Under the pieces are notes generated by a model, which was not told where the DNA came from, did not search any database, and saw only the letters and a list, made by a program, of their open reading frames with translations. Positions 3,077-53,373 of a stretch of 53,791 nt of DNA are shown piece by piece (the stretch's first letter is position 1; the number at the start of each line of letters is the position of its first letter). A program made the position numbers and the translations under genes. The stretch covers positions 1-53,791 of the IMG/VR virus record IMGVR_UViG_3300047173_000045; one strand, 5' to 3'. Source of the DNA: a virus.

Positions 3077-5956
3077 CTAACTGACTTTACTATCAAGAAG
3101 ATCATAGACTTCGGACGCAGACCGTGGGCGCACTTTGTCAAAAAACAAATTGCGGTTTGCCCGCACGACATTGGCAGGGAAGATATCCTTGGCTTTTGCG
3201 CCCGTGCCGGTAGCGTTAATCAGCTTTTCCGCGCCATTGGGGCCGAACACATGCGCCATATACACCTCGCCGGGACTGGGATCGCGGCCAAGGTTACTGG
3301 CAAGCTGGTTGGCATTATCGCGGGCATAAAGTGAAGCCATCGTACGTTGTGCGTCCGGGTCGGCTTTATCAGCATATTTTATCCCCGTCGAGTCGCCGTA
3401 TTTATTGACCATATCGCGCCAGGTTTGGTTGGTAAATTGGTATGGGCCGGATGCCGAGGAATTGGGGTTTTTGGCGTCGGGATTTCTTCCTGATTCCGCG
3501 ACTTGCATTTTGTCGAGAAGGTTATTCGGCTGCGTAGGCGCAGGGCCTTCGTCGGCATAGGCGGGGGAAATAATGCCGAGTTTGTTCATTAGGTTTTCGG
3601 AGTGTTGTTGTGGCTGTGAAATTGCAGTAGCTGGTGTAGTCTGATCGCCCGGTTTACTAAGCGTCATCGTGCCGCCCGGTAAAGTATCGTTTAGATATGA
3701 ACCAAGAGATTTTATTAAATTCGTTTTAGCCTGTGGCGTTCCTGCATTTTGAATTTTGTCCAAAAGTGCCTGCCCCCTAGGACTAAACATTACATCCGAT
3801 AGGTTTTGCTGATATTCGGCGGTTTGCGCTTTTGAAAAAATACTCAATACGCCATTGGCGGCCTTTTTAGCCGCGTCTCCTAGGCTGGTCGGTATCTTTC
3901 CTGCATTATCGAGAATGTCTCCGGCGGAGGTACGAATATTTGTTAGGGAGCCTTTACTTGGAATAAAAGATGACCCTTCTTGTGCGGTTCTTAAAGTTCC
4001 CATTAAATCCTGAAACTGACTGTATTTATCCGGCCCAAGCAAGGTTTGCCACTTTGCCGCAACATCAGGTGCGCCAGTTTTAAGTTTTCCTGCAAGTGCC
4101 AGAGGATTTCCTTCGTCAAGATTTCCAACAGTTTGCAAATATTTACCTTTAGCCAAAGCTGTTGAAGCATCCGGCCCAATATTTTCTGCAATGGTTTGAG
4201 TAGCCTGGGGCGTGGCAGAAAATCCCTTATCTATGACCTGCTTTGGATATAAATCAGAATCAGCGAGAGGGCCGAGATATTTTTGTATTTTTGGTAAATC
4301 CTCTTGTGCGTTTCCCGCATAAATAGCTCTTGCTTGCTTATATAAGCCGCCTTCCGGCACTAAACTATTAGGGCCAGCTTTTGCAGTAACATCAGCATTG
4401 TCCAATTCATCTCTTAAATTAGATGCCAAGCCGCTCAAAACTCTTGTTTGGTTTCTATTGCCTGCATTCATGGCCTCGCCAGCCATTCCATCAAGCTCGC
4501 GTTTCACTTGGTCTAAGAATTCAAGTTTTAAGCCTGGTGCGATGCCTTTACCTGTTACGATGCCTGCATCAGCACCCTGTGCTGTGAGCTCAGGATCGGA
4601 AACTCCAACATTTTTCATCTGATTTTGCATCGTAACCAATGCGCGTTGGAAGGCCGTTTGTCCGGCTGGCGTATTTATAATACGATTTATCCCCGGTGTT
4701 TCCATGGCTTTATTTGCTTGGTAAGCTTGCTGATAAAGAGGTGCTGCCTGATCCTGCATATTTTTATATATTTTATTGATAGCATCTTGTGCGCTTCCTC
4801 CAACGACCGTTGAGGCCTCGTCAACACTTGATTCAGGACTGATAGTATCGCCCATGCGTTGAATAGCATTAGAAGCGTTATCCAAACGCCCATTAAAAAA
4901 TGACAGGGCTTGCCCTTTAGTCTGTGGCTTAATCGCCAATTGTCCAGCTTTCGCCATCATATCGGGATCGCCAATTGCTTCGGCAAGAGTTATGGGGATG
5001 CCAGAATTTTGCGCCGCCGCATACCGCGAATTAGCCTGTTGGATTATTTGATCCGCATCCGGTCTGGCGAGAACTTGCTTTACAATATCTGCTTCTGCGG
5101 GATTGTTAGTTTCAATCGTATTGGCAATAGCTGAGGCTCGTTGAGCAATGGGCGAAGTGATGCGATTTCTAACACTGCTAGCTAAAGATGACCCCGCGCC
5201 AATAGCCTCTCCAGCAAGAGTCCCGACAGGGCCAAGAATGCTGCCAATTTCGGCCCCGTGAGTTGCGCCCTGAGCTTCTTGACCGGGAGCAGCATTGCCC
5301 GCCCCATAAATAGCCCCGGTACCGGCACCCACAGCGCTACCTTGCAAGGCTTTGACACCAAGATTGGCTGCTTTTCCGGCAAGAGTTGATGTGTCAATAC
5401 TAGGGCTAAGAAAATCCCCAACCGCTTGCGCGGCTCCGGTGTCAGCGACTTGTCCAAATGTTTTTGCGCCTCCTGCAACATTGGCAAGGAACGATACAAC
5501 TGGGTGCTGTTGATCCAATGCTTTTGCTGGAGCAGAATACATATCTACGCCAGACTTGTAAAGATCACTCCAGCTTGGAGTTGTTTTGTCGGTAAAGGCA
5601 TTGATCGTCCGCAGAACAGGGTCTGCAATAGTTGATCCAACAGCGGAGGCAACTTTAGGGCCTAATCCTAGTGTTCTTCCATTAACAAAAGCTGCGCCGG
5701 TATCAACAAGAGTTTGTGCATCAGATAAAGCTCTTTGTCCACCCGACATGTCCTCATATTTTTGGTCTGGTGCTTGTTGTGCCTTAGCATCATCCGCCGA
5801 AGCCACAACCGGGTCATTATCCCAAGGATTTGCCGGTTGATTTTGATTAGACGGTGCCTGTGAGGCAGGCGCAGGAGAAAGCGCCGAAGTTGCTGACGAC
5901 ACGGGGGCTTGTGTGGCGGGTGCCACTATCGGATCGCTATCCCACGGATCGGCCAT
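3077..5956 (-). CDS. Large virion protein with C-terminal lytic transglycosylase-like domain
   Basis: 959 residues. The N-terminus carries two WDxDPxVA copies in a Pro/Ala-rich linker; the middle is helical, Ala/Gly-rich with small-residue amphipathic stretches. From about residue 805 a lysozyme-superfamily domain appears: LLDKMQVAESGRNP with the presumed catalytic Glu near residue 821, then SASGPYQFTNQTW and YMAHVFGPNGAEK. This layout fits an internal or ejection protein that opens peptidoglycan during DNA entry. Its ATG overlaps the stop of the upstream 1091-residue gene (TAATG), so the pair is probably translated together. Confidence 0.8.
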   Translation of the reverse strand: MADPWDSDPIVAPATQAPVSSATSALSPAPASQAPSNQNQPANPWDNDPVVASADDAKAQQAPDQKYEDMSGGQRALSDAQTLVDTGAAFVNGRTLGLGPKVASAVGSTIADPVLRTINAFTDKTTPSWSDLYKSGVDMYSAPAKALDQQHPVVSFLANVAGGAKTFGQVADTGAAQAVGDFLSPSIDTSTLAGKAANLGVKALQGSAVGAGTGAIYGAGNAAPGQEAQGATHGAEIGSILGPVGTLAGEAIGAGSSLASSVRNRITSPIAQRASAIANTIETNNPAEADIVKQVLARPDADQIIQQANSRYAAAQNSGIPITLAEAIGDPDMMAKAGQLAIKPQTKGQALSFFNGRLDNASNAIQRMGDTISPESSVDEASTVVGGSAQDAINKIYKNMQDQAAPLYQQAYQANKAMETPGINRIINTPAGQTAFQRALVTMQNQMKNVGVSDPELTAQGADAGIVTGKGIAPGLKLEFLDQVKRELDGMAGEAMNAGNRNQTRVLSGLASNLRDELDNADVTAKAGPNSLVPEGGLYKQARAIYAGNAQEDLPKIQKYLGPLADSDLYPKQVIDKGFSATPQATQTIAENIGPDASTALAKGKYLQTVGNLDEGNPLALAGKLKTGAPDVAAKWQTLLGPDKYSQFQDLMGTLRTAQEGSSFIPSKGSLTNIRTSAGDILDNAGKIPTSLGDAAKKAANGVLSIFSKAQTAEYQQNLSDVMFSPRGQALLDKIQNAGTPQAKTNLIKSLGSYLNDTLPGGTMTLSKPGDQTTPATAISQPQQHSENLMNKLGIISPAYADEGPAPTQPNNLLDKMQVAESGRNPDAKNPNSSASGPYQFTNQTWRDMVNKYGDSTGIKYADKADPDAQRTMASLYARDNANQLASNLGRDPSPGEVYMAHVFGPNGAEKLINATGTGAKAKDIFPANVVRANRNLFFDKVRPRSASEVYDLLDSKVS

Positions 5957-12608: not shown

Positions 12609-13310
12609 CTAGGTTCTAGGCGTCGATAAAGGAGTCGGTGAGTAGGGAGACCACCCCGTCCCCTGCGTCTTGCGCCGCTGCTCTTCTTCAATCGCCGATT
12701 GTTTGTGCGACTGATAGTGCGCTTCCCACGACATAGCAAGTTGTGGGTCAGAACTTCCCGCACCATAATCTCGTAAATAAGCAGAACCAAAAACCATGCA
12801 AGCCGCCAAGAACAAATCCGGCAAATGATCGCCAAGCCATGTTTCTTGATTGGTTGCGGACATCGGCGGCGGACGGAACGTGCCGGTAAATTCCGCAATG
12901 TAATTATTGTCTGGTGTTGGCGCTACAACGACAATCGTATCCGTCTTCATGGCAAAATATTGCGGAAGTGCCGTAACGCTTTCTGTAGGCCATGTTGAAT
13001 CGATGAAATCCAATGATACTAATTCAAGAACATTTCGTGTCCCTGCCGCTGCTTGCGATCCAACAGGCGTAATGGCAGATAAGCCTTGAATAACAATCGC
13101 AGTCGAGGGCGCATTAATTACACGGCTGCCATTAACAAAGTTTACCGGTGTGCTGTCATAGGTTGTGCGCGTGTAAAGAAAATCCAACTCGCGATAGATT
13201 CTTTGCTCCGCGTCATCAATCAAGGCCGGTAAAATGGCCGCAAAGCTGGGATCACCGGATGGGATGACTAGCAGGGTATTTAAATCTGTTACGAGTTGGT
13301 TATATTGCAT
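12609..13310 (-). CDS. Head-tail adaptor-like protein
   Basis: 233 residues. The N-terminal helix and DDAEQRIYRELDFLYTRT motif followed by a beta domain (SRVINAPSTAIVIQGLSAI) and a C-terminal helix (LFLAACMVFGSAYLRDYG) match the phage adaptor family that docks below the portal. The C-terminal 40 residues are charged and disordered. The neighbouring genes on both sides are also head-tail or fibre components. Confidence 0.7.
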   Translation of the reverse strand: MQYNQLVTDLNTLLVIPSGDPSFAAILPALIDDAEQRIYRELDFLYTRTTYDSTPVNFVNGSRVINAPSTAIVIQGLSAITPVGSQAAAGTRNVLELVSLDFIDSTWPTESVTALPQYFAMKTDTIVVVAPTPDNNYIAEFTGTFRPPPMSATNQETWLGDHLPDLFLAACMVFGSAYLRDYGAGSSDPQLAMSWEAHYQSHKQSAIEEEQRRKTQGTGWSPYSPTPLSTPRT

Positions 13311-26889: not shown

Positions 26890-29388
26890 TTATACATCGT
26901 ATAGCGCCTCTTGTTTACCACGCGGCGCAAATTCCTCCCGCAGTATAGCATCTTGTTCTTCTTTTCTCAAGGCAAACCCGTTATCGCGCAACCAACGAAT
27001 TGCTTGGCTGGCGGAATCTACCAAATCGTCATGCTTGCCTTTGGGAAAAGCACTAATCTGCGGGATTAAAAGATCGTCTGCCCAACCCTTTTCCGGCGCG
27101 AAAATAATACCCTCTGACCATAAATGCTGTACTGAATAAAGCCGGGCAACCTTATCCTGCGCCCCTGGATTAACCAATTGCACCCCGAATTTCTCCGCAC
27201 CAAACAACCGCCTAATTTCCTGCGCCACGCTATGGCCGGACGCTTTGTTCTCAATCAGCAATCTATCCACCTTAAACTTGACGCAAATCGGCCCGACGCC
27301 CAAGGTGGAATAATTCTCATTGCCGACCGCATAACGTCCATTAGGATCTTTCTTGCCCATGACCAAGCTGTTTATATCCAGCCTATCCTGCCAGGCATAC
27401 ATGCACATGATTTTCGGCATGTTATTCTTGTCGCGAAACACGCCCCAGACAGTCAGCGCGGAATAATCATTCTCTTGCTTTTCGGTATAGGCCGCATCCA
27501 GCGAGGCAACGATAAAATCAAACGGCGGAAATTCCTTGCTGTCCCAAAGTTGCCACCAGTCGCGTTTGATGATACCGCCGCCGCGAGGCTCGGGCCGTTG
27601 TTGCAGCTGACCAGCGGAATTAGATGATGCAAGGCCCCAAACAACATAATTGCCAGTTGTTGTTTCTAGCGCATAAACTGTTTCTTGCCCTCCATATTGT
27701 ATACTAACAACCTCTTCCTCTGAAGATATAAAGTTCGCTGTATATGCCCCATCTATTAATCTCTGTCGCCACTTTACTGGCTGTACTATATGCAAAAACT
27801 TTTGGAAAAGCTGCAGACAGCTTTTTCCACCAGTAGTTAAAATATAATGTCTTCTTTGTTGCCAATGCGAGTACTGAAGCTGCCTTTTAGGGGTCATACA
27901 GCTAAACTCAAAATTAAATTCTCTTAAATATTCTTCCAACTTTTCACAAAGAGGAAGATTCTTTTCTGCTGTTTGATGAAAAGAAATTTGGGCAGAAGAT
28001 TTATAATCCTTTCCATTTGGTCTTTTTTGACCGCGTCTATTACAAAGAGTGACACTTCCTTCTCCGTCAAAAAACCCAGCTAACCACCCTGCTTTTCTTT
28101 CTTGCTCTGGTAAAAGATTAGGTAATTCAGGATCGCATATCCTCATTAATCTTCTACCGATTATTGCGGGCCTATAAAGTGGGTCATCTGGATATTTCCC
28201 CTGCCTTCTCTTGGCCTGTTTTCCTATGTACCATTTGTGGTCTGCCGTGCATCTAATTATTTTTCCGCTGCTTAGTTTTATGTTTGAAACATCGGCATGG
28301 TAAGTATAAATATTTTTAACTATGGATTTTTTTAGTGACCTTCTATTTTTTCTATCGGCTTTCTCCTCAAATCCAACTACCTCATCACCAATTTTTACTT
28401 CTGATATCGGTTTTAAAGATAGGTCGCCCATCAAAACCGGCGATTCTTTCGGGGTACAACCATACGGCCCAAGCGATGCCTTCAAAGACGCCACTTCTCT
28501 TTCACCAACGCGCTCTGGCCATAGCAACTCACCGTCCACTGTGCGGGGGTCTTCAAAGCCAATCGACGTATAACATTTTCGATCCGCCTCAAACTCCATC
28601 GGCAAACAAAGGTGCGTCCAATCACCGTCCATTTTATCTATAATATGACCGGCCAAATCTGCCTCGTTCAATCTTTGCATGGTAACTAAATACACGCCCG
28701 TTTTTGGGTCGTTCAACCTAGTACTCAAACTTTGATCCCACCAATCTATAACACCTTGGCGTACTAATTCTGACTCTGCTTCAATAGAATTGTGACCATC
28801 ATCCACGGCACAAATTAAAGCTCCCTCCCCTGTCAAAGCACCGCCAACCGAAGTGGCAATACGATAACCGCCATGACTATTATCAAACCTGGATTTTGTG
28901 TTTTGATCCCCAGTCAACGAAAACCTATTGCCCCAAAGCTTTTGATAGAATGGACTAGCAATCAAGCGCCTTGCTTTTAGGCTATCTCTGAAGCTCAATG
29001 TCTGCGCATAAGATGCGTAAAGAAAACTTACGTGCGGCCCGCATAAAGCAGATTCATCAGACTGCGCCCAAACCCAAGGCGCATACGCTACTGAAACCGA
29101 AATCGATTTCATTGTTCTTGGGGGTTGATTAATTAATAAATGACGTATTTCGCCACGGGCTTGTGCTTGAAGATGTTCGGAAATGGCGTCGATGTGCCAA
29201 CCGTGCACGTAAGGAGATGGATCAATATAGCGCCATGCGTGTTGAATAAATGCTGACAAGCTCTCTTCACACTCGCCTCGGATATCAATATCCTGCTGCG
29301 TAAGATTACTCGTCTTCTCCAACCGCCTTTCACGCAACGCGTAAAGCTTTTTCAGGCGGATGATTTTATCTTCCCGTGATTCGGTCAT
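26890..29388 (-). CDS. Terminase large subunit containing an intein
   Basis: 832 residues from the ATG at 29388 (an upstream TTG is less likely). ATPase part: Walker A LINQPPRTMKS (about 86-95), Walker B ALICAVDDGHN. Nuclease part after the intein: VASLDAAYTEKQENDYSAL and a late HDDLVDSASQAIRWL. Residues 311-590 (27619-28458) interrupt the conserved GPYG-SAGQLQQRPEPRGGG segment and form an intein; the spliced enzyme would have 552 residues. Packages DNA through the portal encoded just downstream. Splicing must work for the phage to package, since the insert breaks the motor between ATPase and nuclease. Confidence 0.92.
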   Translation of the reverse strand: MTESREDKIIRLKKLYALRERRLEKTSNLTQQDIDIRGECEESLSAFIQHAWRYIDPSPYVHGWHIDAISEHLQAQARGEIRHLLINQPPRTMKSISVSVAYAPWVWAQSDESALCGPHVSFLYASYAQTLSFRDSLKARRLIASPFYQKLWGNRFSLTGDQNTKSRFDNSHGGYRIATSVGGALTGEGALICAVDDGHNSIEAESELVRQGVIDWWDQSLSTRLNDPKTGVYLVTMQRLNEADLAGHIIDKMDGDWTHLCLPMEFEADRKCYTSIGFEDPRTVDGELLWPERVGEREVASLKASLGPYGCTPKESPVLMGDLSLKPISEVKIGDEVVGFEEKADRKNRRSLKKSIVKNIYTYHADVSNIKLSSGKIIRCTADHKWYIGKQAKRRQGKYPDDPLYRPAIIGRRLMRICDPELPNLLPEQERKAGWLAGFFDGEGSVTLCNRRGQKRPNGKDYKSSAQISFHQTAEKNLPLCEKLEEYLREFNFEFSCMTPKRQLQYSHWQQRRHYILTTGGKSCLQLFQKFLHIVQPVKWRQRLIDGAYTANFISSEEEVVSIQYGGQETVYALETTTGNYVVWGLASSNSAGQLQQRPEPRGGGIIKRDWWQLWDSKEFPPFDFIVASLDAAYTEKQENDYSALTVWGVFRDKNNMPKIMCMYAWQDRLDINSLVMGKKDPNGRYAVGNENYSTLGVGPICVKFKVDRLLIENKASGHSVAQEIRRLFGAEKFGVQLVNPGAQDKVARLYSVQHLWSEGIIFAPEKGWADDLLIPQISAFPKGKHDDLVDSASQAIRWLRDNGFALRKEEQDAILREEFAPRGKQEALYDV
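27619..28458 (-). mobile_element. Intein with LAGLIDADG endonuclease in the terminase
   Basis: 280 residues. Starts at Cys311 (CTPKESPVLMGDLSLKPISE, block A), block B CTADHKW with the TxxH pattern, one clear LAGLIDADG motif LAGFFDGEGS near residue 435, block F TVYALETTTGNYVVWGL, and ends Asn590 before Ser. The usual penultimate His is Ser here (SSN-S). The DNA is visibly AT-richer than the flanking terminase, suggesting recent acquisition. Boundaries are supported by the restored terminase motif when it is removed. Confidence 0.9.
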
Positions 29389-29725
29389 GTTCAATGGCTT
29401 GGATGATGCAATAAAGCTCGGCTAAGCATTCGGTCGGCATACCTGTGATTAAAAAACATGGGCCACCGCCCTCATCATCTGGCCGATTAATCCACGCTTG
29501 CCAACCTTTTGAACCGTTTTCATTAACAGAGAAAAAACCATGCGGCCTAATGCCCTTCAAAACATCCCTGCTAGTTGTATAATCAGGGCAACCATCAATG
29601 CGGCTTTCATAGTTAGCGCCGCCGCCTAAGTATTTCCACACCGCGAGATCAATCTCTTCCATTGCCGGTTCATTGGCGGGATCGACGGCTTCGATAAGCT
29701 TTAAAATGTTAAGTGCGTCACTCAT
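29366..29725 (-). CDS. Phage ABA-sandwich-like small protein
   Basis: 119 residues. YTTSRDVLKGI, the Trp-containing strand and CFLITGMPTECLAELYCIIQ near the end resemble the small alpha-beta sandwich proteins common in phages. Overlaps the terminase start by 23 bases and the glycosyltransferase stop by 4. Function unknown. Confidence 0.6.
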   Translation of the reverse strand: MSDALNILKLIEAVDPANEPAMEEIDLAVWKYLGGGANYESRIDGCPDYTTSRDVLKGIRPHGFFSVNENGSKGWQAWINRPDDEGGGPCFLITGMPTECLAELYCIIQAIEHDRITGR

Positions 29726-40928: not shown

Positions 40929-41392
40929 AAACCATTCTCGGCATCGATATCGGCATGTCTGGCGCTCTCGCATTTTATGACGGGGCGGAGTTGATTATTT
41001 ATGATATGCCGGTATTCGAGCGTAATAAAACAAAACGCCTAGATTGCAATGCTATAAAAAACATTCTAACAAACCTACATTTCGATCATGCCTATATTGA
41101 GCAGGTTAATGCTTTTGGCATGGGTGTGTCGTCTGCTTATAATTTTGGGTGGAGTTGCGGTGTAATGGAAATGGCGGTCGCTAGTGTTGGTAAACCATTT
41201 ACCTACGTAACCCCGCAAACGTGGAAAAAAGCCATGCAATGCCCCAAGGACAAAGATGCAGCAAGAATGCGGGCGACGCAATTATTCCCAAATGAGGCGC
41301 ACCAGTGGTCGCTAAAAAAACATGATGGAAGGGCAGAAGCATCATTGATTTGTTGTTTTGGCCGTGCTAAATTGGGGTATGATAGTTTATAA
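40925..41392 (+). CDS. RuvC-like Holliday junction resolvase
   Basis: 155 residues. RuvC/RNase H motifs: GIDIGMSGALA with Asp8, HAYIEQVNAFG with Glu59, the TPQTWKKAM segment, and KKHDGRAEAS with Asp134 (and Glu138). Length matches the short phage members. Resolves branched DNA before packaging. The 3' end overlaps the GIY-YIG gene by 14 bases. Confidence 0.88.
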   Translation: MKTILGIDIGMSGALAFYDGAELIIYDMPVFERNKTKRLDCNAIKNILTNLHFDHAYIEQVNAFGMGVSSAYNFGWSCGVMEMAVASVGKPFTYVTPQTWKKAMQCPKDKDAARMRATQLFPNEAHQWSLKKHDGRAEASLICCFGRAKLGYDSL

Positions 41393-42128
41393 AATAACAA
41401 ATATCCTTAACAAGAAGGGATATGTCGGAATAACAAAAAATTCCCTCGATTGGCGTTGGAAAAAACATCTTGATAGTCTATCAAGAGGGCATGATCAATT
41501 TCTGTACCGGGCTATAAGAAAATATGGAATAGATAATTTTAAAATAAAGAAAATTTCTTCGGCATCTTCAATTGAAGAATTAAATCTTTTGGAGAAGCTC
41601 TACATAAAAAAATATAAAACATACTTTAAACATCATGGATATAACATGACTTTAGGCGGAGATTTATCTGGGTATTGCCCATCAGAAAAAACAAGGAAAA
41701 AATTATCTAAAGCTGCAACCGGAAAAGTGCAATCACAACAAACTAGAGATAAAAGAAGTAAGAGTATAAAAAAGTCCTGGCAAAATAAAGAGATTAGAAA
41801 AAAAAGAATAGAAGCAATGACAATTGCTCAGAATGATCCGGAAAATAAAAGAAAGGCGTCTAAAACGAAAAGAAGGATTTGGAAAAATCCAATATTAATA
41901 GAGAAACATTCTTTTATTATGAAAGCGGTTAGGGCGAGACCAGAGGTTAAAGAAAAATACAAAAAAACACATTGCTTAAGGGGGCATAAATTATCAGGTA
42001 AAAATTTACGAATAAATAAGCAGGGGAGAAAATCTTGCAAAACATGCACGAGAATTAAAAAAATAGAATGGAGATCAAATAATAGAGAAAAAGAAAACGA
42101 ACAGCAAAAACGGAGAAGAAAAAAATAA
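41379..42128 (+). CDS. GIY-YIG homing endonuclease with NUMOD-like repeats
   Basis: 249 residues from ATG 41379 (MIVYKITNILNKKGYVGITK: the GIY-YIG pair). The WRWKKHLDSLSRG segment and LNLLEKLYIKKY (catalytic-type Glu) complete the module. GYCPSEKTRKKLSKAATGK is a NUMOD3-type DNA-binding motif; the C-terminal CLRGHKLSG...CKTCTRIKK is a probable zinc-binding unit. Strongly AT- and Lys-rich, unlike its neighbours, as for an acquired homing gene. It overlaps the resolvase end. Confidence 0.88.
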   Translation: MIVYKITNILNKKGYVGITKNSLDWRWKKHLDSLSRGHDQFLYRAIRKYGIDNFKIKKISSASSIEELNLLEKLYIKKYKTYFKHHGYNMTLGGDLSGYCPSEKTRKKLSKAATGKVQSQQTRDKRSKSIKKSWQNKEIRKKRIEAMTIAQNDPENKRKASKTKRRIWKNPILIEKHSFIMKAVRARPEVKEKYKKTHCLRGHKLSGKNLRINKQGRKSCKTCTRIKKIEWRSNNREKENEQQKRRRKK

Positions 42129-43874: not shown

Positions 43875-45062
43875 TTGCACTATAGGACTTTTAAATATAA
43901 ACTTTTGCCAACAAGCACTCAATACGGGGTGCTTGAGAATATACGTGAATCACAAAGGCAGCTTTATAACGCGGCTTTGCAAGAGCGTATTGATTGTTAC
44001 AAGAAAACCGGCAAAGGTCGGTCATATATGGATCAATGTAAGGCGCTTACCGAGTTGCGCGCAGATGTTGAATATTCAGAGGTTCCACTAAACATCCAAC
44101 GATGGACGTTAAAGCGGCTTGATGAGGCGTATAAAAGATTTTTCAAGTTCGGAGGATTCCCAAGATTTCGTAGTTTTCAACGATGGAAATCGTTTGGTTT
44201 CGCTGAATTTTCAGGGTTAACCTTAAAAGATAATTATCTTAAAAGCAGAATAATTCCTGGTAAGTTGCGTTTAAATTTACATCGACCAGTGTCCGGAAAA
44301 ATAAAATCCTGCGTTTTCAAGAAAGACACGAAAGGTTGGTATGTTTTTTTACAGTGCATTATACCGGCTAAAGAACTAACACATGCTGGTCCAGAAATAG
44401 GAATCGATGTTGGTTTAAATAGCCTTGCTACACTATCAAACGGCCACCATGTTGAAAATCCGCGCATAGCCAGAAAATATAAAAAGGAATTACGCCGTAG
44501 ACAGCGCGCTCTTAGTCGCTGCAAGAAAGGCAGCAATGGCCGCCGTAAAGCAAAAATAAGCGTATCTCGATTGCATGATAAAATAAAAAATACTAGACGA
44601 TCATTTCTTCATGAGCATTCCAGCAAACTTGTTCAAGCGTATAGCAAGATAATGGTTGAGGATCTGCAAATAAGGAATATGGCCAAATCGACCTTTGGGC
44701 CGTCAATTCATGATGCGTCGTGGGGAATATTTATTGAGATGCTTGAGTACAAAGTTGCAAATACTGGTTCTCAGGTTATTAAAGTTAATCCGCATCACAC
44801 TTCTCAGGAATGCTGTAACTGTGGGAAGATCGTGCGGAAAACTATTCGTGAAAGAATGCACAGTTGCGATTATTGTGGCACAATTTTAGATCGAGACCAC
44901 AACGCAGCGCTGAACATTCTTTCTAGGGGCGGGATTGTCCCTAGGATGGCTAACGTAGCCCATGAGGGCAAGCGTTCATCCGTAAAAATGTCAATACGCC
45001 GACATAAGTCCCCAAGGAAAGGTGCTGTGATCCCCCACAACGCCGCGCCGATGGAGGATTAG
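43875..45062 (+). CDS. tnpB: TnpB RNA-guided nuclease, operon-embedded
   Basis: 395 residues from TTG 43875 (AAGGAAAG 5 bases upstream). RuvC-type catalytic residues all present: Asp178 in GIDVGLNSLA, Glu262 in IMVEDLQIRNM, Asp341 in DRDHNAALNI. Zinc finger CCNCGK and CDYCG. TnpB cuts DNA guided by an RNA made from the element end. No tnpA and no IS ends are visible; the stop directly abuts the next ATG and the gene end carries that gene's GGAGG. It may be domesticated or transcribed with neighbours. Confidence 0.9.
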   Translation: MHYRTFKYKLLPTSTQYGVLENIRESQRQLYNAALQERIDCYKKTGKGRSYMDQCKALTELRADVEYSEVPLNIQRWTLKRLDEAYKRFFKFGGFPRFRSFQRWKSFGFAEFSGLTLKDNYLKSRIIPGKLRLNLHRPVSGKIKSCVFKKDTKGWYVFLQCIIPAKELTHAGPEIGIDVGLNSLATLSNGHHVENPRIARKYKKELRRRQRALSRCKKGSNGRRKAKISVSRLHDKIKNTRRSFLHEHSSKLVQAYSKIMVEDLQIRNMAKSTFGPSIHDASWGIFIEMLEYKVANTGSQVIKVNPHHTSQECCNCGKIVRKTIRERMHSCDYCGTILDRDHNAALNILSRGGIVPRMANVAHEGKRSSVKMSIRRHKSPRKGAVIPHNAAPMED

Positions 45063-48375: not shown

Positions 48376-48506
48376 GTTTACGGCGGCGCAAAGTAGATAG
48401 GCGTTTCTGCACGGCTTTGTGTAGAGCCGTCCTGTTTAGGCAGGTTAGAGTTTCAAGTACTCCGTCGCCACCTTGCCTTACATTAAAAAACTGCGGAAGT
48501 ATGGAG

Positions 48507-48534
48507 TTGACTAAATAAGCAGATACTCTATACT
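48507..48534 (+). promoter_or_regulatory. tnpB promoter inside the left end
   Basis: TTGACT (48507-48512), 16-base spacer, TATACT (48529-48534), overlapping the left inverted repeat. The start point would fall near 48541, so the ATG at 48542 would be leaderless. A 9-base stem AATAAGCAG / CTGCTTATT (48514-48522, 48533-48541) ends at the base before the ATG. Confidence 0.65.
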
Positions 48535-48541
48535 GCTTATT

Positions 48542-49690
48542 ATGCTTCTAGGTTATTCAGTAAAACTCTATCCGAACAAGGCGCAGAAAGAATTGCTAGA
48601 TAAGCATTTCGGCTGCGCTAGGTGGGTTTATAATGAGATGATAAAAATTAACCAGAAGAAATATCATAGAACTGGCAAAGGTTTGTCTGGCTATGATATG
48701 CAATCATATCTTCCAAAGCTGAAAAAACAACATCCGTGGCTTAATGATGTAAATAGCCAGTCTCTTCAAATAGTATGCCACAGCGTTGCTGATGCTTACG
48801 GACGATTTTTCAAGAAACAGGCAAAGTATCCCCGTTTTAAAAAAAAGACGGAAAACGGTAGTTTTACTTCTATAAACAATTCTTATATTACAGATTCGAA
48901 AATACGTCTTCCTAAACTTGGCTTTATTCGGTTCCGTGGCGGAGAAAAACCGGAAGGCAAGATCAGAAGGATTACTGTAAAAAAATTAGCGGGCAAATAT
49001 TATGCTTCTGTTCTGATAGATACGCTTCAGAAAGAAATTCCAGAGAAAACTTTTAATACCATCACAGGAATTGATGTCGGGATAACAGATTTGATCGTAA
49101 CAAGCCATGGAGAATGTGTAAGAGCGCCAAAATACTATCGGAAGGCGCAATTAAAACTAAGGGCAGCGCAAAAGCGTTTGAATAGAGCGAAAAAGGGTAG
49201 CAACAGGCGCAAGAAAGCGCGTCTTGCGGTTGCTTGTATTCATGAAAAAATCAAGAATCAGAGAAAGGATTTCAACCACAAAATTACAAGACAATTAGTG
49301 AACGATGGCGAGAACCAAGCTTTTGCGACCGAAAGTCTTTCCGTTAAGAACATGATGAAAAACAGGAAGCTATCAAAGGCGATAGCGGATTGTGGATGGG
49401 GTCAGTTCAAGACATTTTTAATGTACAAGGCCGCTGCGGTTGGCAAGCCTGTTTTAGAGGTTGGGCGCTTTTTTCCTTCCTCTAAAACATGTTCCGCATG
49501 CGGTCTGGTGCGTTGTGATCTAGTCTTATCAGAGCGAGCGTGGACTTGCGAATGTGGGGCAGCTCACCATCGGGATATCAACGCAGCCCGTAATATTGCG
49601 TTGGAAGCGGCGAGGAACGTCGCGCATGGAGGTGATGTAAGTCCGAGGCTTGCTTCGGTTATTGCCCATGAAGTGCAGATGTGTATATGA
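48542..49690 (+). CDS. tnpB: TnpB RNA-guided nuclease (second copy)
   Basis: 382 residues. Catalytic set intact: Asp178 in GIDVGITDLI, Glu264 in FATESLSVKNMM, Asp345 in HHRDINAARNI. Zinc finger TCSACG and CECG. The N-terminus (YSVKLYPNKAQKELLDKHFG) is typical of TnpB. It differs widely from the copy at 43875, so the two were acquired separately. No ribosome site precedes the ATG. The guide RNA would be expected to overlap the 3' end and right terminus. Confidence 0.92.
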   Translation: MLLGYSVKLYPNKAQKELLDKHFGCARWVYNEMIKINQKKYHRTGKGLSGYDMQSYLPKLKKQHPWLNDVNSQSLQIVCHSVADAYGRFFKKQAKYPRFKKKTENGSFTSINNSYITDSKIRLPKLGFIRFRGGEKPEGKIRRITVKKLAGKYYASVLIDTLQKEIPEKTFNTITGIDVGITDLIVTSHGECVRAPKYYRKAQLKLRAAQKRLNRAKKGSNRRKKARLAVACIHEKIKNQRKDFNHKITRQLVNDGENQAFATESLSVKNMMKNRKLSKAIADCGWGQFKTFLMYKAAAVGKPVLEVGRFFPSSKTCSACGLVRCDLVLSERAWTCECGAAHHRDINAARNIALEAARNVAHGGDVSPRLASVIAHEVQMCI

Positions 49691-49792
49691 TATTTAGTAG
49701 TGTACATACTTCCGAAAAACTGTTATGGTGATTAAATGTTTAGCCTATACGATACCAAACTAATCAACCCACACAAAAGAAAGAGGATTCGC

Positions 49793-52590: not shown

Positions 52591-53373
52591 TTAAAAGTTG
52601 ATGTTTACGTCTTTAATGCTGTCACCGATAATTCTTTGCCAATCCGACAAAACCGGCTCAATCTTGCGACGGGTTTTATGTAGATCAACATAACCGAAAA
52701 ACCTATCATCTTCTTGATTTACCGGCTCGACATTATCGAAGTCATGTTTGAAGTACGGCTCTTCCAGAAAATGGTAAATCTCTGTCATTACCTTTTCCGG
52801 TGAAGTCGTTAATTCCTCAAACCGAACAAAGTGCATTCTATCATGAAAACCACGCTGTAGCGCGTCTTTAATATTGTTGACGGCCATACCTAATGGTTGT
52901 TCTGGCTGCGATATAAGTTCTGCGCGGCCTTGCGCGGTTCTGAATTTAAGCGGGTGTTCTCTTTCTAACGGCGTTATACCCAGAGCCGAGGATTTGCGAT
53001 GCAGCTTTTCAAAAGAGGCCATGATGTCGCGCACGTCACGCACGGGAACTAAAATCTTGGCTTTCTTTTCAAACAAAGCTTCGATCATTTCGATGTGGGA
53101 AGTCCATCCACGGCTCTTGTCAAAAATTACGGGGCGATCAATATCGGAGTAAAAGCTTTCCATGATGCCGCGAATAACGTGCTTCTTGGCCGGATTATTT
53201 GGCACAGCTTTAAACGTATCTAGCGTGTCCCAGCCATTGCGAACAGCGACCATGACATCAAGAACACCAGACGTTGATGAACCAAAGAAACGCGGGTTCT
53301 GACATAAAATATTTTGCAGCAAGGTCGATCCTGCACGCGGTAATCCAGACGTGAAATAAAATGTTTTGCTCAT
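52591..53373 (-). CDS. Sulfotransferase-family protein
   Basis: 260 residues. PAPS-binding loop FTSGLPRAGSTLL (residues 7-19), 3'-phosphate site PVRDVRDIMASFEKL near 110-125, and a late VRFEELTTSPEKVM. Sulfotransferases move sulfate from PAPS to a hydroxyl or amine. The gene follows the fibre gene (4-base overlap), so a glycan of the host or a fibre component is a possible target; that is inference. Phage copies are known mainly from marine phages. Confidence 0.85.
   Translation of the reverse strand: MSKTFYFTSGLPRAGSTLLQNILCQNPRFFGSSTSGVLDVMVAVRNGWDTLDTFKAVPNNPAKKHVIRGIMESFYSDIDRPVIFDKSRGWTSHIEMIEALFEKKAKILVPVRDVRDIMASFEKLHRKSSALGITPLEREHPLKFRTAQGRAELISQPEQPLGMAVNNIKDALQRGFHDRMHFVRFEELTTSPEKVMTEIYHFLEEPYFKHDFDNVEPVNQEDDRFFGYVDLHKTRRKIEPVLSDWQRIIGDSIKDVNINF

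Follow-up and report, generated by a model that had tools for sequence, protein, structure and literature searches.

The window analysed here is the whole of an uncultivated virus record (IMG/VR record IMGVR_UViG_3300047173_000045; 53,791 bases). It contains a transposon-like unit with genuine terminal inverted repeats (TIRs) and a target site duplication, which spans 48494-49714 (1,221 bp) and has an intact tnpB gene as its sole open reading frame (ORF). The TIR arms, CGGAAGTATGGAGTTGACTAAATA and CGGAAGTATGTACACTACTAAATA, are 24 nt long and identical at positions 1-10 and 17-24, and the direct repeat AAAAACTG on either side is exactly 8 bp, the adjoining outer base being different. The initial annotation had described a tnpB-only unit with TIRs and an 8-bp duplication. 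This description is confirmed by a score above chance and by control loci without the pattern; the layout and the match at positions 17-24 also stand, whereas the length given, 1,222 bp, is corrected to 1,221 bp. The features are as follows.

48483-48485, plus strand: putative transposon-adjacent motif (TAM) TTA, directly 5' of the duplication; TTA or ATA likewise precedes the insertions of relatives
48486-48493, plus strand: left copy of the 8-bp target site duplication, AAAAACTG, read from the sequence
48494-48517, plus strand: left TIR, CGGAAGTATGGAGTTGACTAAATA, matching the right arm at 19/24 positions and the arms of other sublineages at 8-12/24
48507-48534, plus strand: possible promoter, TTGACT-16 nt-TATACT, overlapping the left TIR, proposed from reading the sequence
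48514-48541, plus strand: left-end hairpin, AATAAGCAG..CTGCTTATT, adjoining the tnpB start; TAAATAAGCAGA is common to the relative L097
48542-49690, plus strand: tnpB, 382 amino acids, RuvC residues D178, E264 and D345 intact and four zinc-finger cysteines (Pfam, NCBIfam, invariant residues)
49573-49714, plus strand: omega-RNA scaffold region, overlapping the tnpB 3' end and terminating at TTCCG (homology, nhmmer model, fold)
49680-49708, plus strand: omega-RNA terminal hairpin with a TTTAG loop, inside the right end (fold; canonical relatives have the same loop)
49691-49714, minus strand: right TIR, also the omega-RNA 3' end (comparison with the left arm)
49715-49722, plus strand: right copy of AAAAACTG, predicted first 8 nt of the guide

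The pattern was compared with chance in simulations from a second-order Markov model of the 53.8-kb window, with the best TIR-plus-direct-repeat score anywhere as the statistic. The score of the unit (19.5) was equalled in 4 of 645 simulations (0.6%; p about 0.005), and for ends that bracket tnpB the chance is about 1e-5, an estimate made by scaling pair numbers rather than by simulation. The next-best candidate around the window tnpB scored 9, and the same scan of eight control TnpB loci gave a maximum of 12. At 33 more TnpB loci, including the relatives L097 and L098, a TIR plus direct repeat never scored above 13. A strong inverted repeat at the locus L128 was rejected as a TIR, its right arm sitting in the omega-RNA 5' stem and not at an element end; an inverted copy of that stem lies upstream of tnpB at 2363-2401 of this locus. 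Other copies of both ends, for which the initial annotation had suggested a search, were not recovered: among other contigs, viral and genomic, the end motif in exact form (18 specified bases, or a 16-base version) gave only unpaired chance matches (five stretches exact, fifteen with a looser pattern). No second copy of the motif turned up in IMG/VR, and a BLASTN search with the unit as query matched none of the named phages or plasmids.

The encoded protein has the RuvC catalytic residues, zinc finger, helix-turn-helix and family hidden Markov model (HMM) matches of a TnpB, with hits to OrfB_IS605, Cas12f1-like_TNB and HTH_OrfB_IS605 (Pfam PF07282, PF01385, PF12323). It scored 371.8 bits against the NCBI model IS200_TnpB, below the strict cut-off of 425 for that model, 324 bits against guided_TnpB, above the cut-off of 100, and 151.3 bits against IS607_TnpB, far below its IS200_TnpB score. 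With IS200_TnpB as its best HMM, it falls outside the IS607-derived, eukaryotic Fanzor lineage. The three acidic residues and the four cysteines are conserved; RNA-guided DNA cleavage is a predicted activity.

Past their last RuvC motif, canonical relatives (about 38-47% identity) have the arrangement GGAGG..GTAAG..stem..ATGAAGC-hairpin(TTTAG loop)-..TTCAC, in which we treated TTCAC as the scaffold end and the guide as beginning next. In IS200/IS605 elements, the guide-RNA scaffold terminates at the element boundary (PMC10711439). The window unit carries the same right-end parts, an omega-RNA with a terminal hairpin as in IS200/IS605 elements of the IS1341 type, and its TTCCG falls exactly on the right boundary; the scaffold ends in TTCCG in L097 and in ATCCG in L098. 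The terminal hairpin folds in most members of the clade described below, whose nhmmer omega-RNA model includes the window sequence itself. Because these parts are homologous and end in TTCCG at the boundary, the right TIR is the guide-RNA 3' end as well, so that the guide would begin at the duplication (predicted guide AAAAACTGTTATGGTG..., duplication first). The best reading of the sequence is that both TnpB and its guide RNA are of IS200/IS605 descent. Two further matches to the omega-RNA pattern, L171 and L172, were discarded as chance matches within coding-like sequence.

A profile search of viral contigs returned L097, L098, L139, L140, L141, L142 and L143, which form one clade with the window TnpB (support 1.0; 48-58% identity to it) in a tree that omitted L141, nearly identical to L140. 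Members come solely from uncultivated or metagenomic phage contigs: L139 (G126a) and L142 (G126b) from the 114-kb contig G126, L140 from G127, L141 from G128, L143 from G129, L097 from G125 and L098 from G130. No relative of G126 was found among named phages, and a search for the clade across about 1,190 genomes of Bacillota, Bacteroidota and Desulfobacterota yielded only ordinary relatives. TIRs are present in six of the eight clade loci (the window unit, L139, L140, L141, L142 and L143) and in a tnpB-less miniature copy. The L139 TIR matches at 23/24 positions from CGGA and has 24 identical bases when begun one base further out, the L142 TIR matches at 21/24, and those of L143 and L140/L141 are shorter or gapped. 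Left and right ends are alike within a sublineage (19/24 in the window unit, 23/24 in G126a, 21-22/24 in G126b and the miniature copy MITE87) and unlike between sublineages (mostly 8-14/24), a pattern that joint recognition of the two ends would produce.

Empty sites were obtained by all-against-all BLASTN. The G129 insertion reads TTA-TAGTGCTG-CGGACTT...AAGTCCG-TAG(13 nt)TGCTGCC, against GATAGTGCTACC in the empty alleles of G127 and G128, which verifies an 8-bp duplication whose right copy is split by a 13-nt insertion. That insertion (L164, about 4006-4018) interrupts the predicted guide of this tnpB element after 3 nt, and the altered guide has lost its match to the empty site in related phages. 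On G126, the tnpB-less MITE87 (87324-87518, 195 bp) reads TTA-TAGCATAC-CAAACTTATCCC...AAGTCCG-TAGCATAC, with an exact 8-bp duplication. G127 and G128 have ATTTA-ATCCGAAATAATCCC...TTCCG-ACCTCGAATC where the empty alleles have GTTTA-ACCTCAAATC (G126) or ATTTC-ACCTCAAATC (G129), and MITE12 on G126 (12697-12895) has GATA, then 199 bp ending in TCCG, then ACCAAATGG, against GATA-ACCACATGG in G129. In both of the latter comparisons the junction agrees with a boundary directly after TCCG; the right boundary of the clade elements is firm.

Four of the five defined insertions (window unit, MITE87, G129, G127) lie directly 3' of TTA, and MITE12 lies 3' of ATA; TnpB elements are frequently cleaved at TTAT on their left side (PMC9956272). 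Given this TAM-element-target geometry, the guide should match the empty site unless it has since changed, and 14 of 16 positions of the predicted G127 guide agree with the empty site in G126, behind TTTA. The insertions are located at gene junctions, and their presence varies among phages with otherwise homologous flanks. The search for empty sites proposed in the initial annotation thus succeeded for relatives (alleles of G127/G128, G126 and G129) and not for the window unit, which has no relative at the DNA level; the portal gene has relatives of no more than about 50% identity, which are without the flanking gene. G126 carries two tnpB copies, the two miniature copies and, on the minus strand at 61319-61445, an omega-RNA standing alone. 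Its omega-RNA-only loci (L151-L156; 61319-61445, 12697-12895, 87324-87518) each have their own flanks as different predicted guides.

TIRs together with a duplication of fixed 8-bp length are the mark of staggered double-strand integration, and to our knowledge IS200/IS605 and IS607 elements produce neither. We therefore prefer a DDE-type transposase acting in trans, and the duplication of 8 bp in three copies is as expected of non-autonomous DDE elements. On balance, we consider it rather likely that the unit is a non-autonomous TIR element with only TnpB and a guide RNA, moved by a transposase in trans, probably of the DDE kind with an 8-bp stagger, and retained or spread by cutting of empty sites. 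Such a transposase would recognise the CGGA...TCCG ends and insert the unit just 3' of TTA, and its stagger would create the duplication. Transcription through the right TIR would yield the omega-RNA scaffold's 3' end, and the first guide bases would be the duplication, followed by the flank. The TnpB-guide complex could then recognise TTA, duplication and flank, that is, the empty site (for the window predicted as CATTA-AAAAACTG-TTATGGTG), and cut there. Unoccupied sister or competitor genomes would be repaired from the occupied one, resulting in retention or homing; we infer this cutting and repair from the known behaviour of TnpB.

Our transposase scan covered part of the window ORFs and most G126 ORFs over about 150 amino acids and found no DDE, Y1 or serine recombinase gene. 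Neither a Y1 TnpA as in IS200/IS605 nor the serine recombinase TnpA of IS607 is present in the unit. The TIR unit, the scan and the empty sites of relatives agree with the earlier proposal that tnpB is cargo mobilised in trans. However, TnpB is not mere cargo within foreign ends, since the right TIR is its own guide-RNA 3' end and is homologous to an ordinary IS200/IS605-type right end.

Several observations weigh against mobilisation by a DDE transposase. The G127/G128 insertion is clean at the TTA-target boundary, with no duplication. MITE12 is likewise free of a duplication, is inserted exactly at the ATA-target boundary and lacks the left TIR end. No duplication was seen at G126a and G126b, judged from the occupied sites; three copies (window unit, MITE87, G129) have the duplication and four others do not. 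No TIR was recognisable in L098 or in L097, which is the sister of the window TnpB. The full-length relative with matching ends and a transposase for which the initial annotation had suggested looking was not found, in a sample that hardly includes bacterial hosts. Duplication-free, TAM-adjacent geometry and end hairpins equally fit IS200/IS605 movement. Because of the copies without duplication, we hold our confidence in a DDE transposase no higher; in these copies, either the left junction has been rewritten or a Y1-like route in trans, which they make possible, acts too.

A purely Y1-based origin would make the unit an IS1341-type (tnpB-only IS200/IS605) element moved by Y1 TnpA in trans at the TTA TAM, its TIRs being co-evolving arms of subterminal hairpins and the eight bases before CGG a left linker whose match to the flank is secondary or partly chance. 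The right end, TTTAG-loop hairpin and omega-RNA are indeed homologous to canonical IS1341-type ends, L044, a 44-46% relative, adjoins a TnpA-Y1 gene, and insertions lie directly after TTA or ATA, two of them without any duplication. However, the duplication is 8/8 at a fixed offset in the window unit and MITE87, with a third, target-verified case in G129, and the eight bases vary among copies whose left ends are otherwise nearly identical. In L139 the TIR is long and almost perfect but does not form a palindrome, and the scanned ORFs include no Y1 gene. We regard this origin as unlikely. It is more doubtful still that the unit is a non-transposing homing cassette, kept by TnpB cutting and recombination, with the TIRs and duplication as relics of one old transposition. 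Gene-junction insertions, polymorphic presence and the match of the G127 guide to the empty G126 site with TTA in front would suit such a cassette, but separate matching TIR pairs occur in three sublineages at unrelated sites and one phage, G126, has the two tnpB copies, two miniature copies and lone omega-RNA listed above, which argues that transposition was repeated and not very old. That the repeats surround an ordinary tnpB by coincidence is very improbable. In genome-wide simulations 0.6% reach the score and the end motif has no second copy in IMG/VR, but the repeats bracket tnpB exactly, one terminates at the independently defined omega-RNA end, and the recurrence of the same plan in relatives largely refutes coincidence.

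Elsewhere in the window, a second, distant tnpB (43875-45062; 33% identity) lies 3.5 kb upstream of the first and has no TIR. The terminase large subunit gene (26890-29394) is split by about 280 amino acids with LAGLIDADG/HNH-type endonuclease matches, probably an intein, and a GIY-YIG homing endonuclease gene lies at 41358-42128, giving four selfish nucleases in this phage (two tnpB, the terminase insert and GIY-YIG). A sulfotransferase-like gene is located at 52591-53373. On another viral contig (L011, 3700-5450), a TnpB-like gene lies between CRISPR-like repeat arrays on both sides.

It is quite possible, and we propose it tentatively, that this phage TnpB clade left single-strand IS200/IS605 transposition and was coupled anew to a cut-and-paste transposase acting in trans, in three sublineages whose TIRs are matched separately. 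The TIR would double as the guide-RNA end, each duplication would write a new guide, and tnpB-less miniatures would spread guide RNAs, leading to a scattered guide array served by two TnpBs in one phage. The data suggest that phages may carry elements consisting of omega-RNA alone, which broaden the range of targets of one nuclease. The phage examples with empty sites permit direct tests of guide acquisition, TAM use and homing.

Like IS1341-type elements, the window unit has a TnpB of the same subfamily (42-46% identity), a right-end omega-RNA whose hairpin has a TTTAG loop, an insertion point 3' of a short motif resembling TTA and no internal tnpA. Unlike them, and contrary to the absence of TIRs that defines IS200/IS605, the unit and its TIR-bearing relatives have TIRs, with an 8-bp duplication in three copies, and the scaffold ends in TCCG rather than TCAC. 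Miniature inverted-repeat transposable elements and insertion sequences with 8-bp target duplications share TIRs, the 8-bp duplication and gene-less miniature copies with this family, for which neither a cognate transposase nor an autonomous relative was found and whose miniature copies bear omega-RNA. Phage homing endonucleases resemble it in gene-junction insertion, polymorphic presence and predicted cutting of the empty allele, whereas the family would be RNA-guided and gain a new guide per insertion.

The initial annotation knew of no described example. In literature that leaves out most subscription journals, so that absence is weak evidence, we found no prokaryotic unit with a single TnpB, TIRs and a duplication, but comparable eukaryotic units have been described. 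Fanzor1 and Fanzor2* units of eukaryotes and eukaryotic viruses lie within TIR transposons; they have one TnpB-type gene, TIRs and target duplications, which are 8 bp long in the IS4-like ESvi-1B, and TIR and duplication are both reported to lie inside the guide-RNA scaffold (PMC3627910, PMC10711439). By our comparison, Fanzor elements are the closest analogue of the family. Both are non-autonomous single-gene units with TIRs and duplications, a right TIR within the guide-RNA scaffold and a transposase not within the unit. Fanzors are eukaryotic and descend from IS607 TnpB, whereas the window TnpB is of IS200/IS605 type and from a phage; the duplication is reported to be part of the scaffold in Fanzors and, as the position of TTA suggests, is the start of the guide here. 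If the proposed recoupling is correct, it would be a bacterial counterpart to the step from which Fanzors arose, and TnpB could switch transposase class in bacteria too, beyond eukaryotic Fanzor.
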